This document shows positions 2,048 through 62,180 of a stretch of 64,000 nt of DNA, piece after piece. Positions within the stretch are counted from its first letter, which is position 1, and each line of letters starts with the position of its first letter. Under the pieces are notes generated by a model. That model was not told where the DNA came from, did no database searches, and saw only the letters and a program-made list of their open reading frames with translations. This DNA is from Chalara sp. BL73 (lineage: Eukaryota > Ascomycota > Leotiomycetes > Helotiales): positions 806,001 to 870,000 of the forward strand of contig CAKJVC010000150.1 of the NCBI GenBank assembly GCA_918026815.1, given 5' to 3'. A program made the position numbers and the translations under genes.

Positions 2048-3955
2048 ATGTCTGGAGCCGCGGAAGGTATTGCGGGTGTCACGGCACGCGCTGTGGATCT
2101 ACAGATACAGAGGGCAACGGTGGTGCAATACGAGAATCTATAGCTAAGGAAGGAAGAGGGAGCTCGAGGAGAGCAGGCTATATATACACGAGGAGCTCGG
2201 GGAGCTCGCCTAATATGGATCACGTGTGCTTGGGAGCACGCGACGTGACAGCGGGGTTGGCTCTAAGCGCCGTTAGCGTAGCCTCGCTCTTCACCACATG
2301 CATTGATTGCTACAATCTCGTTGTTGCAGCACGGGACTTCGGCCATGACTACGAGCTTCTTTGCACACAGTTAGAACTCCAGAAGCTTAGATTCTTCTTA
2401 TGGGGAGAATCAGTGGGCCTAGCAACCCGAGAACCAGAGGGACAGCCTCATCCGAATCCTGGCCTGTACGATCCTTTTATCCAGCCCGTTCTGATTCGTA
2501 CTTTGAGTACTATCAAGAATCTCCTTAGTGAAACGCAAGAGTTTGATGAGAGATACGGCTTTAGGTCGGAGCAATCGATTCAAGAGTCGGGATCTCGCGG
2601 TTTGAGTATTTTCCGAGCAACATTCGACCAGTTTAAGAGTCAAGCGCGGAAGAATCAGAAGCAGAAACCCGTTGGAACCATCATGAGATGGGCGATATTT
2701 GATGCGGATCATTTCGAAAGTAAGATAGCCCACCTGAAGGGTTTTGTTGACGCTCTGGAGAGTGTTACTAGGTCACTAGTAACACTCGAAGCCCAACGAG
2801 ATCGACTCCGCCAAGAAATCGAGTCTATATCTGATGTAGACAGTCCTCGTCTGCTTCGGGAAGCGGCAAGCCCCGAGATTGAGGATGTTTCGAACACCGC
2901 TAGTCGAAGATTGACTTATATCGAATCTTCGGACGCAAATGAAGCAATGTCTCTGATTACTAGAACAGAATCATCCGTCACTTCTCAGACATTCTTCTCG
3001 GCACGATCTCACTTCACCAATGAGAACCGGGTGTCAGAAGATAGTACCAGAACAAGTGGTGATTTGTACTCAGCAGGTGGTACACCTCCAAGACCACTTG
3101 CTCCAGCGAGTGTTGACTTGGTACCGGCACGATTTAGGTTTCAGCGTCGTAACAACTCCATATTGAAGCGAATTACATCCCCCACCACCACAGGTGCCAT
3201 TACCCCAAACCCTCCTGTGTCCATTCCAAAACCTTCCGTCACTCCTAACCCAACTTGGGTGGGTCGTGCTGCCGGTAAGATGGTACTATATAAACTAGCA
3301 GTTCTCGGTGATGGAGGAGTTGGCAAGACTGCCCTTACCATACAAGTCAGTAATCCTTTTTAAGTCCCCTAGGCCTTCGTATATTAACATCTAGCAGTTG
3401 TGTCTTAATCACTTCGTTCAGACCTACGACCCCACCATAGAGGACTCTTATCGCAAACAAGTAGCAATAGATGGCCAAGTTTGCATGTTAGAAGTTCTTG
3501 ATACAGCTGGGCAAGAAGAATACACAGCTCTTCGTGATCAATGGATCAAAGATGCCGAAGGCTTCGTCATCGTGTATAACATTTACAGTAGGATGTCATT
3601 CGCTCGATGCCGTAGATTTTACGATCAAATCTGGAGAGTGAAGGAAACGCCTACGGATAGTCGTTCTCCAATAATGTTAGTTGGACATGATTATATTGAG
3701 GACGAAGAGGTAGAGTCGAGGGGGACGTGGGAACGTCAGGTTTCTTGGGAGGAAGGCAATGCTCTCGCTCGAGAATTTGGGTGTGACTATGTAGAGGCCT
3801 GTGCTAAGACTTGCGTGAATGTCGAGAAAGCATTCTATGATGTTGTGAGGGAATTGAGGAAGCAGAGAGCCGCAGCCTACCATGGGTCACGTGCTATGCC
3901 AGGTATTTCCGGAGGATTTACCAGATCCCGCGCCATGCCAGCTACTTCTGAATAA
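2048..3955 (+). CDS. HeLo domain-Ras-like small GTPase fusion, 5' end disrupted by a solo LTR
   Basis: The open frame runs 2215-3345, then a 52-bp intron (3346-3397, donor GTCAGT, acceptor AGCAG), then 3398-3955, giving 562 aa from the ATG at 2215. The N-terminal ~200 residues look like the HeLo/prion-inhibition-and-propagation domain (hydrophobic N-terminus, then TCIDCYNLV, ELQKLRFFLWGE and a final helix LEAQRDRLRQEIES), known as a membrane-targeting cell-death domain in HET-S. A low-complexity linker follows. The C-terminal part is Ras-like: P-loop GDGGVGKT (365-372), switch I YDPTIEDS (387-394), DTAGQE (412-417) and ACAKT. The G4 motif NKxD is replaced by GHDY (473-476) and there is no CaaX box. 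The original start is probably the ATG at 2048: its frame reads a HeLo-like leader up to 2076, where the LTR begins, and then stops inside the LTR. The ATG at 2215 lies within the LTR. The gene may be active through either start. Confidence 0.8.
2072..2255 (+). mobile_element. Solo LTR (174 bp) with 5-bp target duplication GCGGG inside the HeLo-Ras gene
   Basis: The element is 2077-2250. It starts TGTCACG and ends CGTGACA (TG...CA ends), and GCGGG occurs on both sides at 2072-2076 and 2251-2255. A TATA-like TATATATA sits at 2179-2186. A second copy, also exactly 174 bp and with its own 5-bp duplication, lies inverted at 61895-62068; I count 5 differences, so about 97% identity. These are the marks of an LTR retrotransposon reduced to a solo LTR, although a very small non-autonomous element cannot be excluded. 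It supplies the in-frame ATG at 2215. Confidence 0.9.
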
Positions 3956-28310: not shown

Positions 28311-30756
28311 ATGGGCCGCCCATTCCTGTTGGATTTCCCCAAAGGCGCATTTGCTGGGTGTTACAATGATGCAATCCAACCCGAACTTGAACCGGGTGGA
28401 TCTTGCCCTTTTTCCAGACTAGCAGATGATATTCCCAGGCTCAATCTACGAACTTGCCAAAATCCGGCATGCTTGAAGGAAAAGAAGAGGATGGACCGCA
28501 ATGCTCCAGCGTGCCAGTGGACGGTCTTTCGAGAATGGCACCGGTTGTTATGTCTTGCCTAAGCTGCCAGTCGTCCATCTCCTATGATAAATACCTGAAA
28601 GAAACCTGTTGGTTCCGTAGGATACCTATCACGTAGCAAAAGGCGTAGTAGCTATTGACTACGCTCTTGCTGGTGTGATTATGGTTCCTTGATTGATTGT
28701 TCTACTCAGATTCTACGCTACGGCTATGGAAGTGTGCGAGCATGCCGCATGTCACGTGCCGACATGGATGGCATACCGACAAAACCCATTCTCTTTTAAG
28801 CGCAGTTCGCCTCTGCTGGGAAGTATATTACGGTTGTAGGAGGCGTCACTGGAAGGAAACCGAAGGAGTTGATGTGTTTGGAACTTGTGAAGTGATATTC
28901 TGGATGATGCCTGATTACGCAGAAAATGGGTTCGAAGATTTTATGCTCAAGTTTTTGAGGGGAAGCGAGCTCGATGTGCCAGCAATTTACAGTGCGGTTA
29001 ACTCACCAGACCAGAGTGTTTGTCAACACCAACTATGGAACCTGGTCATTGCTAGTTCACACAAATTTGTTGATCTACCGGTGATTTTGTCCATGATAGA
29101 GCAGCGGTTTCCTCCAGGCCACCAATGGCTGCACCGGGACTGCACCGCTGAAATATGTCATTTTGACGACAATAATACTACGACAGTTCGCAACTACACA
29201 AGTGTGAAAGACTCGACTGCCATCAAGTGTTCTTCAATCCTAAAAATATCGAGGATGTTGTCACTACCGAACTAGAGTTTGTTTCGACCAACTGGACAAT
29301 TCCAGCTGAAGATTCTCAGATTGGATGTGATCGCTACATGGCAATCTCACATGTATGGTCGGATGGAACAGGGGTGGGCTTAACGTCTCCAGGACATGTT
29401 AGTGGCTGCCTCTTCGATTTTTTCGCAAAATTCGCAAGAGATTTGGGCCGCGATGGAATTTGGTGGGACACGATTTGCATTCCTAATAAGCGCGAGAAAA
29501 AGACGCTCGCTCTGAACTGGATGAATAAAAATTACAAAAAGGCCGCTTACACACTCGTCCACGACCAAGAGTTAGTCAACTTCAACTGGAAAGAAGATGG
29601 CAGCCCATGCCTTGCCCTGGTTCTCTCAAGGTGGTTCACGCGTGGCTGGACTGCTTTAGAGCTGAGGGAATCTGAATCCGTTAAAGTTCTCTTCCGCGAC
29701 CCTGAGACTGGCAATCCTATTCTCAAAGACCTTGACGATGGTATTATTGCCAAAAGAAGCAATTTATCGACCCACCCCGCACAACGAGCCGCTTTCGCAG
29801 TCATTCAAAGAGTGCGAAGCACTAGCAGCCAAACGCAACTGGGGGAGTCGCGAATAACCCAAATCATGTCAATTCTGAAGGCGAGGCACACTTCTTGGAC
29901 AAGAGATCGCATGATTATTGCTAGTCTTATGGCAGGTGTGGAAAATTTCCAATCATCCTGGTCCAAATCGGAAATCACCAAATCCATTCTCAGAGAAGCC
30001 GGCTGCATAACGGGGTCGGCTCTGTTGCATGGCCGGATTACCATGTGCAATTCGGGGCCTTGGTCGTGGTGTCCAGTCTCGCTTCTCGATCTAAATGAAG
30101 ACGCATGCCTCGCTAGATCCCTTCATGTAGAGGAGAGCGGAGCAGTTACCGGAGAGTGGAGAGCCATGCCTTTAAACCATGCAAAGATAGCTCACTCGCT
30201 GAATTCCCACATATCGGTCAGTTTACGGATAGAAGCTGCTCTGCGTAATCAGAAAAAGTGTCTGTTATTGTCTCCACTTGAGCAGGATCCTAAGGAAGCG
30301 AAACAGCGATGTCTTCTGGTGATAAATTTGGGAGTAAAACATTTGGGAGGAAGATTGTCGAGACAGTGTAGCTATGTTGGCGCTGGTGTTGCACATTACC
30401 AACGCCGGGGCATCCTACAAACTATACAGTTAGGTTCTGACGAGACCATGGAGCCTCTTACGGAACACGAGGCAGATACCGAAGCTAAGGATTGGGGCGG
30501 ATGGACACCGCTGCATTGGGCGGCGTTCGAAGGCACAAAGAAATTTGCTAAAAAGCACTTGAGCAAAGGCGGGGACGTGAATTCGAAAGATGATATGAGA
30601 TGGACACCGTTGCACTGGGCGGCGTCGAAAGGCCACTTGGAAGTCGCTACGACCTTGATAGCGAAGAAGGCGGATATTAACGCAAAGGACCGGAATGGAC
30701 AGACGCCGTTAGACGTAGCAAATTCGGATCGTATCCGAAGATTGCTAAGCTCCTGA
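28311..30756 (+). pseudogene. HET-domain protein with C-terminal ankyrin repeats, frameshifted
   Basis: The frame 29227-30756 holds the HET core: YMAISHVWSDGTG, IWWDTICIPN and WFTRGWTALELRES, then a variable middle, and two ankyrin repeats (WTPLHWAAFEG, WTPLHWAASKGHLEVATTLI). Upstream 28697-29190 reads on in another frame with family-typical sequence (GVDVFGTCEVIFWMMPDYAENGFEDFM, QWLHRDCTAEICHFDD). The join at 29190/29191 lacks one base: the 28697 frame would flow into the 29227 frame if one base were present there, and no splice signal lies nearby. The first part (28311-28620: DIPRLNLRTCQNPACLKEKK) also changes frame. HET proteins trigger incompatibility cell death in filamentous fungi. It is a recent pseudogene or carries a sequencing error. 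Confidence 0.75.
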
Positions 30757-32800: not shown

Positions 32801-35800
32801 CTAACGACACATGATCCAAGACCCGTTCAAAGTAAAAGAAGCCCAATGATACGGCGTCATATTCCTATATTGGGTCCTCAGCTCGAGAATGCTCTTTTGC
32901 AAAATAATTGCGAGGTCAATGACCTGTGATGCCGATGCTCTCGACAAATTCTGATGAAACAAGTGGGCAAATATAGCAGCGGTCGGCACATGGACATTCC
33001 ACATAGTACCCACTACAGAGGAGACGCCTCCGCAGAGAAGGGCGGAAGTCATTCCCCTCGGCTCATCCAGGTTGTCAAGGCTCCCAATGGCGGATCCGCA
33101 TGCCAAGAGGAGCATAGTTGATGTCTTTACATTGATGCTAAAAACGTCCAAGGCCGTGAATCTAGGCGATGGCTGGGCTAGTCCCGCAATTCGCTCACCC
33201 GGCGCAACTGCCTTGGGTGATAAGCGAATCCCCTGCAGCAACTTGTTGTCATGGTCATCGCAATGCCCGATAAAAGATACAACATCCGTCGAGCCCAGCT
33301 CATTCGTGATACGGTCCTTTCCAATGTTTTTTCCATGGATCAATCCTTTCTCGGTTATGCCCAGGGTCTCTAGAATGCCCCCATATACATTTTTCGTGGC
33401 TTGATCAGACAAGGCGCGACCCTCATCAGTCTCTTCGAATACGGCTATAAAAGACCGAGACAATTGGGGCCGCTGGTTCCTCCGCTTGAGCTCTCTCAAA
33501 ACACACTGGTGAAGCGTTGTCATGCTGTGGGTGTATACAACCGGGTTTCGCTCTATGACTGTTTCCTTCACATTTTCTGACACAGTCGCAGCGTGTAATG
33601 GCATCCCAAACAAATCCTGGGTAGGCGAAAATACAAGGAGGTCTCCTGGCTCCGATAGCCAAATTGCTGGATAGACCAGCCTCGACAGAGCCCAAAAAGG
33701 TGTCATGTCAGATTCGTCCAAGCGAGATCGTGTGCGGCCGTCTTCCTTCTTTGCGAAGTGGGCTTTCCATGCTTCCGAGTCCTCCACCCGGAAGTTGGTT
33801 GTATAGTTGTGTACTTGACCCCTCGCCAGGATAATGAGACAATAGTACTGGTGTGTGACGACCCAATCAACGAAAACGATCTCTTTCTTATCAGCTTTTG
33901 GGATGGCAGTCTTTAGCCACTGCAAATTTTCGATTGAAACTGGTTGACCCTCTCTGAGATCGAGCAGCTCTTGCAATACTGGCCTGCTCCGCATTCGCTG
34001 CCTGTGAGTATTAAGCTCCCATTTGATAAGGCTGCTAGTGTCGGGGGTGTTTGGGTCCAACTTTGCGACGATAGTCTCCTCCTGCTTTAGTAACTCTCTT
34101 GCCACTGCGTCCTGGTTCAGTCGTTCTTTCAAGAAACAAGGTATGTTTATTCCAAGTCCTAGGGTGTCAGAGGTGCTTCGAGCCTTCGATTTCTGGACCC
34201 AGCGCCACAGTGTTCCCAACTCCTTCAGCTCACCATACAATCGAAACGCCACTTCGAATACCTCACGGCTGCCGTTGGCCTGGCCGATGGTTTGTCTGAC
34301 TATAATCGCTTGTTTGGTGTCCTTGAGGGCCGAAAGGTGATTTCTATCTAAAGCTGCCATATCGTCAAGTTCATCGAGACCTCTTCGGGCTTCTTCTACA
34401 GGAGAGAAGCTTTTGACGCTTCGAATACCAAAGAGCCTCGACTCCTTCACTCGCACATAGTTAAGGCCATTTAAGAATCCAGACATCCAGAGTCCCAAAA
34501 GGAGCCTGGCGTTCAACGTAGTTGCCGCATGGTTGCCATACTTTTCTAAAAGCTCTCTGGCTTCTTGGTACAAGGTGATAGCTTTGGAGAAGTCTGAGTG
34601 TTCCGACCCGGAGTTGTCTTCCTTGATCCGCCAGAGCTTCTCATGAAAGACTGCAAGCTGTTGCCGAGCAGTTCCTGCGAGGTAAGAATGAGACTCGGCA
34701 CTATATAACTTTATGACTTCCTCGTTCAATTGTACCGCCGCTCCTAAGTGTTGGAGCTTCACCTCCATCATCAGGGCGTATTCGCTTCTGAGGAATTGGA
34801 GTCTTGCCCGGATCTGCCCGGCATGACCGGCCCAGATACTCGAGGCGGGCCACCTTAGCTGCTGTGAGTAAATATCAACAATATATAAAACTTGTTTAAG
34901 AAGGTTCTCAGTATCATCGATGTTTCTCTTGTGATTTTCCCCTTGCTGGACATACAGGTTGCACAAGTTGCAGAGTCGTTGAACCTGAACAGCTTTGTCT
35001 TCGGGGTCATAAGAACTCTCGATAGTGCATCTAACCCTTCCTAAATCTGTACCCAAACTATGGCACTCTGACAAATAAGTGGTCACGTTTGCCGAATCGG
35101 TCTCGCCTTTTACTCTGGCGAAGAATGGGTCGAGCCCCAATATCGCAGCCATGCGTGGTGGAACGGCGTAGGGATGCTTGGATACCAAATCTGCCGCCTT
35201 TTCCGAGTCCCCAAGATTGTTGTAGCTTTCTATTAAGACTTGAATAACATGGCTGTGGAGATTTGGCGCCTCCATCTCGAAAATGTCATTCCGCAGACTT
35301 TTAAGACCACCAAATATCGCTCCCATGTTGCCCCCGCCTTGCAGCCAGAGCTTGTAGTTCAATATGCTGATGGCAGCCCAGATAATGGAGTTTTGGCATC
35401 GATTTCTGATCGACTGAAGGGACCCTTCCACCCTTATCTGAAGAGAACGGTCAGCCCCAAGACCTCCGCGTGCATTCAGCTTGATGATTCCCTTAACACA
35501 ACTAATCGCCTCAGTCCAGCTACCACGAACCTCTAATCTCCCCTTCATTGTGAAAAGCTCCTCCGTTCGCTGCGTCAAGTCACCTTCGCAGAGTCCGTGT
35601 TCGAGCAGTCTCGCTCGTACGACATCTGGGCCGTAGGCATGAGATACCTGCATGAAGAGAGCCGCTGACTCGTTCAAAATTTGCCTGTAAGTATCTGGAG
35701 CATGTTGCTGCGTTGATGCTAGCATGTGCTCCGCCTTACAGAGAAGTGAATATGCACGAGTCAAGCTCGGAACGGTAGGGTTGGACAGTAGTTGCTCGAG

Positions 35801-36440
35801 CATCCCTTGCGAGTCCAGCTCCGCATCGGAGAAGTTTGGCATGGTTGCAATAAGCCTCGCTTCATCATATCGGCCGGCTTGGACCAAGCAATTAAACAAT
35901 AAGGGAAAGAAGGGCAATGGGAGGGTTGGCAGTGTATGTTGAAAGCCGACAAGTTTGAACAGGCTACACAGACCGTGATAGAACAATATTGACTCAATCT
36001 AGAAGCATCAGTGGCCTGCCAGGAAGTAATAATACAAGTTAAACTTGAACACGAACCATTTTCGAGTCAATATTAGCATATGTGGTGTAATTCGCAGATG
36101 CCAGCCATGCCAGCTTTTGCTGGAAAATGTTGCCAGCATCTTGTGACGGCTGAGTTAACTTGCCTGTAGTCAGGGCCAGAACGAAAGCATTCAAAAGTGA
36201 AAACAACCCGTAGCTGTGATTATCGTGAAATTCTCTGCCTCCGGAATGTTCAATTAATCCAAGACGTTGGCGGCAATCATGTACAAGACCTTGCTCCAAC
36301 GCCATAGCAGCAGCTTCGATTGCCGCATAAGGCTGATGAATAACCGCGTCCAAGTACTCAATCGCTTGGCCATAGTAGCCAAGGTCTCTGAGTCTCCGTG
36401 CCTCGCGAATTCGCCAATCAACTGCAGCATTGTGGTCCAT
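32801..36440 (-). CDS. TPR-CHAT protein (caspase-clan peptidase-like), 1193 aa
   Basis: Two exons: 36440-36057 and 35998-32801, separated by a 58-bp intron with acceptor TTCTAG. The N-terminal and middle ~800 residues are helical with TPR-like motifs (LGYYGQAIEYLDAVI, AGRYDEARLIATM, FSKAITLYQEARELLEKYG). The C-terminal ~300 residues form a CHAT domain: the catalytic pair is His1040 in VSFIGHCDD and Cys1095 in LLLACGSAIG, followed by SALLCGGVSSVVGTMWNV and a C-terminal MTPYHWASFTLNG. Both catalytic residues are kept, so it should be an active cysteine peptidase or a close relative. In bacteria TPR-CHAT proteins are effector proteases of immune systems; in fungi CHAT proteins are abundant but poorly known. 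The ATG at 36440 is the first true ATG; the frame upstream starts only with TTG. Confidence 0.85.
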
Positions 36441-61679: not shown

Positions 61680-62180
61680 AAAAACAGTTAGCTTATGTTC
61701 AGTATATGTTTAGCATATGTTTAATATATATAGTACATGTTTAGTATTTGTAGTACATGTTTAATATTTAAAACACATGCTCAGTATATGTTTAGTATAT
61801 GTTAAGTATATGTTTAGTATATGTTTAGCATATGCTCAGTATTTGTAGTATATGTTTAGTATTTAAAGTACATGTTTAATATTTGAAGCATATGTGTCAC
61901 GTCGCGTGCTCCCAAGCACACGTGATCCATATTAGGCGAGCTCCCCGAGCTCCTCGTGTATATATAGCCTGCTCTCCTCGAGCTCCCTCTTCCTTCCTTA
62001 GCTATAGATTCTCGTATAGTACCACAGCTGCCCTCTGTATCTGTAGATCCACAGCTCGTGCCGTGACAATATGCTTAGTATATATAGTATATGTTCAGTA
62101 TTTAAAGTATATGTTCAGTATTTGAAGCATATGTTTAGTATATGTTTAGCATATTCTGAACATATACTGAACATATGCTT
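61680..62180. repeat. AT-rich tandem-like repeats (GTATATGTTTA units)
   Basis: From 61690 to 61894 and again from 62069 to about 62175 the sequence repeats variants of AGTATATGTTTAGCATATG and AGTACATGTTTAGTATTT, interrupted only by the solo LTR. The array makes up much of the DNA transposon's interior. Confidence 0.8.
61890..62073 (-). mobile_element. Second copy of the 174-bp solo LTR, inverted, target duplication ATATG
   Basis: The element 61895-62068 is the reverse complement of the LTR at 2077-2250, same length, about 97% identical. ATATG flanks it at 61890-61894 and 62069-62073. It lies inside the AT-rich array of the DNA transposon, so it arrived later than the array. Confidence 0.92.

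Follow-up and report, generated by a model that had tools for sequence, protein, structure and literature searches.

Described systems close to the locus reported here include a fungal cell-death protein and retrotransposon insertions into plant and fungal genes. The locus lies in a 64,000-nucleotide stretch of Chalara sp. BL73 (contig CAKJVC010000150.1, positions 806,001 to 870,000; hereafter the window, with positions counted from its first letter). There, a 174-bp solo long terminal repeat (LTR) splits codon 10 of a gene that encodes a HeLo domain followed by a Ras domain (HeLo-Ras). We conclude that this young antisense Ty3/gypsy solo LTR probably makes the HeLo-Ras allele hypomorphic or null.

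In HET-S of Podospora anserina, an exposed N-terminal segment of about 34 residues moves to the membrane, and transmembrane prediction for this segment correlates with toxicity (PMC3531502). Additionally, a 2025 paper describes HeLo domains as dependent on their extreme N-terminal helix (PMC12881547). The HeLo domain of the window is homologous to that of HET-S/HET-s, and the HET-S N-terminal segment aligns with AGLALSAVSVASLF. Unlike in HET-S/HET-s, the HeLo domain here precedes a Ras GTPase domain, and its N-terminus is cut by an LTR.

As for the insertion, the Evelknievel (EK) element lies in exon 13 of Arabidopsis CMT1, where splicing was analyzed by reverse transcription PCR (RT-PCR) (PMC6238269). 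As at HeLo-Ras, the LTR element sits in a coding exon between 5-bp duplications that start with G (GGCTG for EK), so that this G and the A of the LTR make up an AG acceptor, and one spliced form of EK is in frame (PMC6238269). However, EK is a full-length element in a plant with splicing shown by RT-PCR, whereas HeLo-Ras harbors a solo LTR near its start codon, and its splicing is predicted. The EK donor is a GC in the upstream duplication, whereas the candidate donor of HeLo-Ras is a GT, and the frame-keeping form of EK is a scarce minority (PMC6238269). ANiTA2 in the aoxB gene of Aspergillus niger is likewise a case of a fungal gene broken by a retrotransposon with short LTRs, as one allele among several; it differs from HeLo-Ras in its size (a ~13-kb insertion), its 7-nt duplication, its Ty1/copia class, and its target, an alternative oxidase gene (PMC10219456). 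The same paper also has a solo LTR derived from recombination at a different site (PMC10219456). The HeLo-Ras insertion is confirmed; as a solo LTR allele it is of an ordinary type, but its location is of interest. A literature search limited to open-licence papers returned neither a HeLo-Ras fusion nor retrotransposon null alleles in vegetative incompatibility; on solo LTRs in incompatibility or allorecognition, it gave a single paper, which concerns spore killers.

The solo LTR and its Ty3/gypsy family

The preliminary description of this DNA, made from the letters alone, held that a 174-bp LTR with a GCGGG target duplication cuts, at position 2076, the HeLo N-terminus opened by the ATG at 2048. 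The letters were rechecked, and these coordinates are right. The insert has the termini TGTCAC...GTGACA and a perfect GCGGG/GCGGG duplication, and a single LTR without element interior lies between the two copies, which classifies it as a solo LTR (Table 1). The element interior would have been lost via recombination between LTRs.

The N-terminus was compared with those of 33 homologues. The core G[IV]AG[LV][AT]LS is present in 31 of them, and the other two (P0021 and P0025) begin downstream of the core; 23 of the 33 start with MSGAAEGIAGL. This supports the earlier claim that the HeLo domain resumes past the LTR in the matching frame. At the protein level, the only level at which the comparison was made, the homologues run from the 2048 peptide into the frame found downstream of the LTR, and a search of all 33 for two LTR-encoded motifs revealed no LTR-like N-terminus. 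P0003 and P0004 continue through the position of the HeLo-Ras intron, and P0002 stops there. These three look like unspliced open frames taken from DNA, and their N-termini would therefore be contiguous in their DNA. The two named HeLo homologues come from Mollisia and Puttea. The genes of the window fit a filamentous ascomycete, and the named hits among the best 120 of 428 DUF6601 relatives belong mostly to Dothideomycetes, the rest including some Leotiomycetes, Eurotiomycetes, and Sordariomycetes.

We searched the whole genome (58.66 Mb) for the LTR and scored 40 of 403 first-look candidates, so that the match counts are lower bounds. As a result, at least 43 matches were recovered, at least 40 of them near full length and three partial. 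The 42 distinct full-span copies examined comprise 17 solo LTRs whose 5-bp duplications are perfect and differ from one another, 10 copies that adjoin element interior as judged by flank sequence, and 15 copies without a matching duplication. One further solo LTR of the same family, at 61895-62068 on the minus strand, has the duplication CATAT and 97% identity to the copy at 2077-2250.

Paired LTRs about 6.0 kb apart, as expected of full-length elements, were found in L041, L042, and L043. In L043, the best preserved element, the Pfam domains zf-CCHC, RVT_1, RT_RNaseH, Integrase_H2C2, and rve occur in this order and are followed by SH3_Tf2-1. The order of gag, reverse transcriptase (RT), RNase H, and integrase on one strand between the LTRs of L043 assigns it to Ty3/gypsy (Metaviridae). 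Relative to the LTR orientation at HeLo-Ras, the Pfam matches to RT in L041 and to CCHC gag, RT, and integrase in L043 are on the opposite strand; the L042 frames, which were not scanned against Pfam, are similar to those of L041 and L043 and are found on that side too. In each of these elements, one LTR is flanked by TCAC and then a C-rich run, which we read as the polypurine tract of the coding strand. The LTR is antisense to HeLo-Ras because the coding frames of the element lie on the opposite strand.

Compared with 40 other ungapped copies, the window LTR shows no difference from 5, one to five differences from 34, and nine from the last one. Within the LTR pairs of L041, L042, and L043, there are 2, 2, and 0 differences in 174 positions, respectively. 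Due to this identity and to the few differences within pairs, the insertion is, as judged from its sequence, young on the scale of its LTR family; an age in years is not given.

Consequences for the HeLo-Ras reading frame

The frame opened at 2048 does stop within the LTR, as the preliminary description had stated, after 31 residues and at position 2141. In native transcripts, most ribosomes would initiate at 2048 and terminate there, whereas some would reinitiate 71 nt past the stop, at the LTR-borne AUG 2215, and yield a HeLo-Ras protein with MDHVCLGARDVTA in place of MSGAAEGIA. A protein with nearly the whole HeLo domain would require initiation or reinitiation at 2215, splicing, or another transcript start. 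Position 2215 is the sole ATG on the window plus strand of the LTR and is in frame with HeLo-Ras, as claimed earlier, while the opposite LTR strand has no ATG. No AUG in any frame lies between it and 2048, and it is the only in-frame one giving nearly the whole HeLo domain, as the next, at 2683 (scan to 2700), lies past much of it.

With the LTR start, the first nine residues give way to thirteen, among them His, Arg, and two Asp, with Arg and Asp directly before the helix core. Over the first 21 residues, Kyte-Doolittle hydropathy averages 0.85 for the LTR start versus 1.27-1.51 for seven homologues chosen from the 33. This less hydrophobic N-terminus would be expected to act weakly, because the extreme N-terminal segment of HET-S drives membrane targeting and cell death. 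A structure predicted for the HeLo domain with the LTR start, built on an alignment of the window protein and 22 of the 33 homologues, reached a mean pLDDT of 58.6, with residues 1-23 below 50; it was too poor and was not used as evidence.

Several observations weigh against a weakened or null allele. The hydrophobic core AGLALSAVSVASLFTTCI is retained, with a best 19-residue hydropathy of 1.68 versus 1.83-2.09 in the seven chosen homologues, so that activity of the LTR-start protein could survive. The correlation between transmembrane prediction and HET-S toxicity has one exception, H33P (PMC3531502). Figure 2 of the same paper includes an N-terminally His-tagged HET-S, with a result that its legend does not give (PMC3531502), so N-terminal extensions are not established as abolishing toxicity. 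Three ATGs (1969, 1996, and 2020) lie ahead of 2048, and whether 2048 is the first AUG therefore depends on where the transcript starts. Finally, the frame downstream of the LTR is fully open, so that initiation at 2215 or translation of a spliced mRNA may still give a functional protein; however, this openness means little, because the insertion is too young.

Table 1. Features of the interrupted HeLo-Ras gene (window positions).
Feature	Position	Strand	Remark
Native first nine codons (MSGAAEGIA) and two bases of codon 10	2048..2076	+	23 of 33 homologues start MSGAAEGIAGL
Candidate second donor GTATTG, host-derived, with acceptor 2251; frame-preserving (-6 nt)	2067	+	frame arithmetic only
Target site duplication GCGGG, copy 1	2072..2076	.	
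Candidate 176-nt intron GTGTCA...GACAG, LTR ends plus one G per duplication copy; frame-preserving (+3 nt)	2076..2251	+	frame arithmetic only
Solo LTR, 174 bp, TG...CA; sense strand of the element is minus, antisense to HeLo-Ras	2077..2250	-	orientation via coding strand of L041 and L043
TAG closing the native 2048 frame after 31 residues	2141..2143	+	
TATATA motif, LTR position 103	2179..2184	.	matches on either strand
CTAAT, sole YTRAY branch-point-like motif in 2080-2260	2210..2214	+	
ATG within the LTR, with 12 codons (MDHVCLGARDVT) up to the LTR end, exit at phase 0	2215..2250	+	39 of 40 other copies have this ATG
Target site duplication GCGGG, copy 2	2251..2255	.	
Remainder of exon 1, with HeLo domain (Pfam PF14479), linker, start of Ras domain	2256..3345	+	
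Intron, 52 nt, GTCAGT...CTAGCAG	3346..3397	+	inferred from Ras homology
Exon 2: remainder of Ras domain and stop (3953-3955), open throughout	3398..3955	+	matched to Ras

Splicing, a replacement start, and artefact as alternatives

The LTR could instead be spliced out as a newborn intron, with the frame kept and a nearly normal cell-death protein; we consider this unlikely. The possibility of a GT...AG intron made of the LTR ends and the duplication is a point beyond the preliminary description. As GCGGG has a G at either end, the TG...CA LTR lies between a GT (2076) and an AG (2251). The net insertion is 179 nt, and removal of 176 nt (one codon gained) or 185 nt (two codons lost) keeps the frame. 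A branch-like CTAAT also lies 38 nt ahead of the candidate acceptor, although 38 nt is long for the distance between branch point and acceptor in fungi. Donors usually follow the consensus GTRAGT, from which both GTGTCA and GTATTG are far, whereas the own intron of HeLo-Ras has a GTCAGT donor and a TTAAC with its A 10 nt before the acceptor. This part of the sequence has further in-frame donor-acceptor pairs, which shows that GT...AG pairs in frame are nothing unusual in themselves. An intron model derived from the window alone gave no junction at strict thresholds and 101 clusters, judged mostly noise, at loose ones.

CMT1 is a partial precedent, and a close one as regards the acceptor. Its in-frame spliced variant accounts for 25% of splicing events, but the remaining two (58% and 17%) are frameshifted, and the level of full-length mRNA is very low (PMC6238269). 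For ONSEN, splicing is reported to remove most genic full-length insertions (PMC12112155). The bolder claim, that a solo LTR with a 5-bp G...G duplication is a ready-made frame-preserving intron that let HeLo-Ras survive an insertion in codon 10, seems to us more doubtful still. The arithmetic would be independent of LTR length, since five minus two is three, one extra codon. The HeLo-Ras copy is the only one of the 17 solo LTRs with a G...G duplication.

We regard as improbable, and more so than splicing, that the LTR AUG is an efficient replacement start that gives a re-tuned functional HeLo-Ras protein. The context of ATG 2215, with A at -3 and G at +4, its place as the first AUG after 2048, its phase 0 exit into the gene frame, and the open frame past the LTR are consistent with such a start. 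The LTR frame 0 is stop-free across all 174 bp on both strands, and the downstream frame is thereby open back to 2044. Among the 42 LTR copies, the LTR ATG opens a long frame only in HeLo-Ras (382 codons, a few of them reading into the intron). The frames of the other 41 have at most 115 codons (L022), followed by 82 (L019). Against the proposal stand these short frames, the same AUG in 39 of the 40 other copies, the absence of the LTR-type N-terminus from the 33 homologues in the motif search, and, on the native leader, the position of AUG 2215 behind a 31-codon frame.

The replacement start codon of the preliminary description is real, but it is fortuitous. One orientation of the LTR offers an open ATG, and an in-frame start is thus expected in about one sixth of coding insertions (1/2 x 1/3). 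As the ATG is family-wide as well, it is no sign of selection, and we rejected it as a selected feature.

The TATA-like box proposed at 2179 is present as TATATA, but its service to HeLo-Ras is unsupported, because the motif reads on both strands and the LTR is antisense. The LTR brings no known promoter for HeLo-Ras, which also counts against an efficient replacement start, and a promoter of its own, if active, would face away from the gene. An LTR promoter driving HeLo-Ras was rejected as unsupported, the coding strand of the element being the opposite one.

An assembly or collapse artefact, with the LTR not truly at HeLo-Ras, is very improbable: the duplication is perfect, both flanks, when translated separately, match a single homologue cleanly, 16 other examined copies are likewise solo and have duplications of their own, and 174 bp is probably too short to confuse most assemblies.

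The HeLo-Ras protein, its neighbours, and the meaning of the insertion

The frame downstream of the LTR encodes GLALSAVSVASLF... and matches the HeLo family PF14479 with 163.3 bits (cut-off 23.2; E 8.6e-48). The solved HET-s/HET-S HeLo structures 2wvo, 2wvn, and 2wvq also match HeLo-Ras, 2wvo with E 7.1e-17 for the single sequence and 1.6e-20 for a profile made from the window protein and 8 of the 33 homologues. Exon 2 matches Ras (PF00071) with E 9.5e-38, and the P-loop GDGGVGKT, encoded in exon 1, and the G3 motif DTAGQEE, encoded in exon 2, agree with a Ras fold. The G4 motif NKxD is missing from HeLo-Ras, which has LVGHDY versus LVGNKC of H-Ras. LVGHDY replaces G4 also in P0003, P0004, and P0017, so that all four HeLo-Ras proteins compared lack NKxD. 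Given this loss, nucleotide binding in the HeLo-Ras family is possibly altered. P0004 has, in addition, a variant P-loop (GDQKVGKT) and a variant G3 (DTTGAEE). The C-terminus of HeLo-Ras is Ras, and amyloid motifs were not searched for.

Precomputed Ras domains are found in 3 of the 33 homologues. Six other HeLo homologues (P0027-P0032) carry a ubiquitin-conjugating domain (PF00179) in place of Ras. On sequence grounds, HeLo is fused to two different signalling modules, Ras and PF00179.

A six-frame protein search of the genome, with counts that are lower bounds, found neither a paralogue nor an empty second allele. Only the HeLo-Ras locus matches at full length and 100%. The 10 other matches have 23-37% identity, except one at 86% that spans just the P-loop residues 351-378 of the query. 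No NLR was found among ten other long frames scanned in the window, which holds only 2 kb upstream of HeLo-Ras. The same window has a frame at 29176-30753 (+) that combines a HET (heterokaryon incompatibility) domain with ankyrin repeats, and an open frame of 1065 codons at 32804-35998 (-) that carries a CHAT domain at its C-terminus.

If the allele is reduced or null, as we favour, it would be a clean natural lesion in the part of HeLo that is thought to attack membranes. As a young insertion, it may still be polymorphic, and strains with and without the LTR could then be compared. If the LTR is spliced instead, a simple rule, independent of length, would turn LTR insertions with a G...G duplication into in-frame introns.
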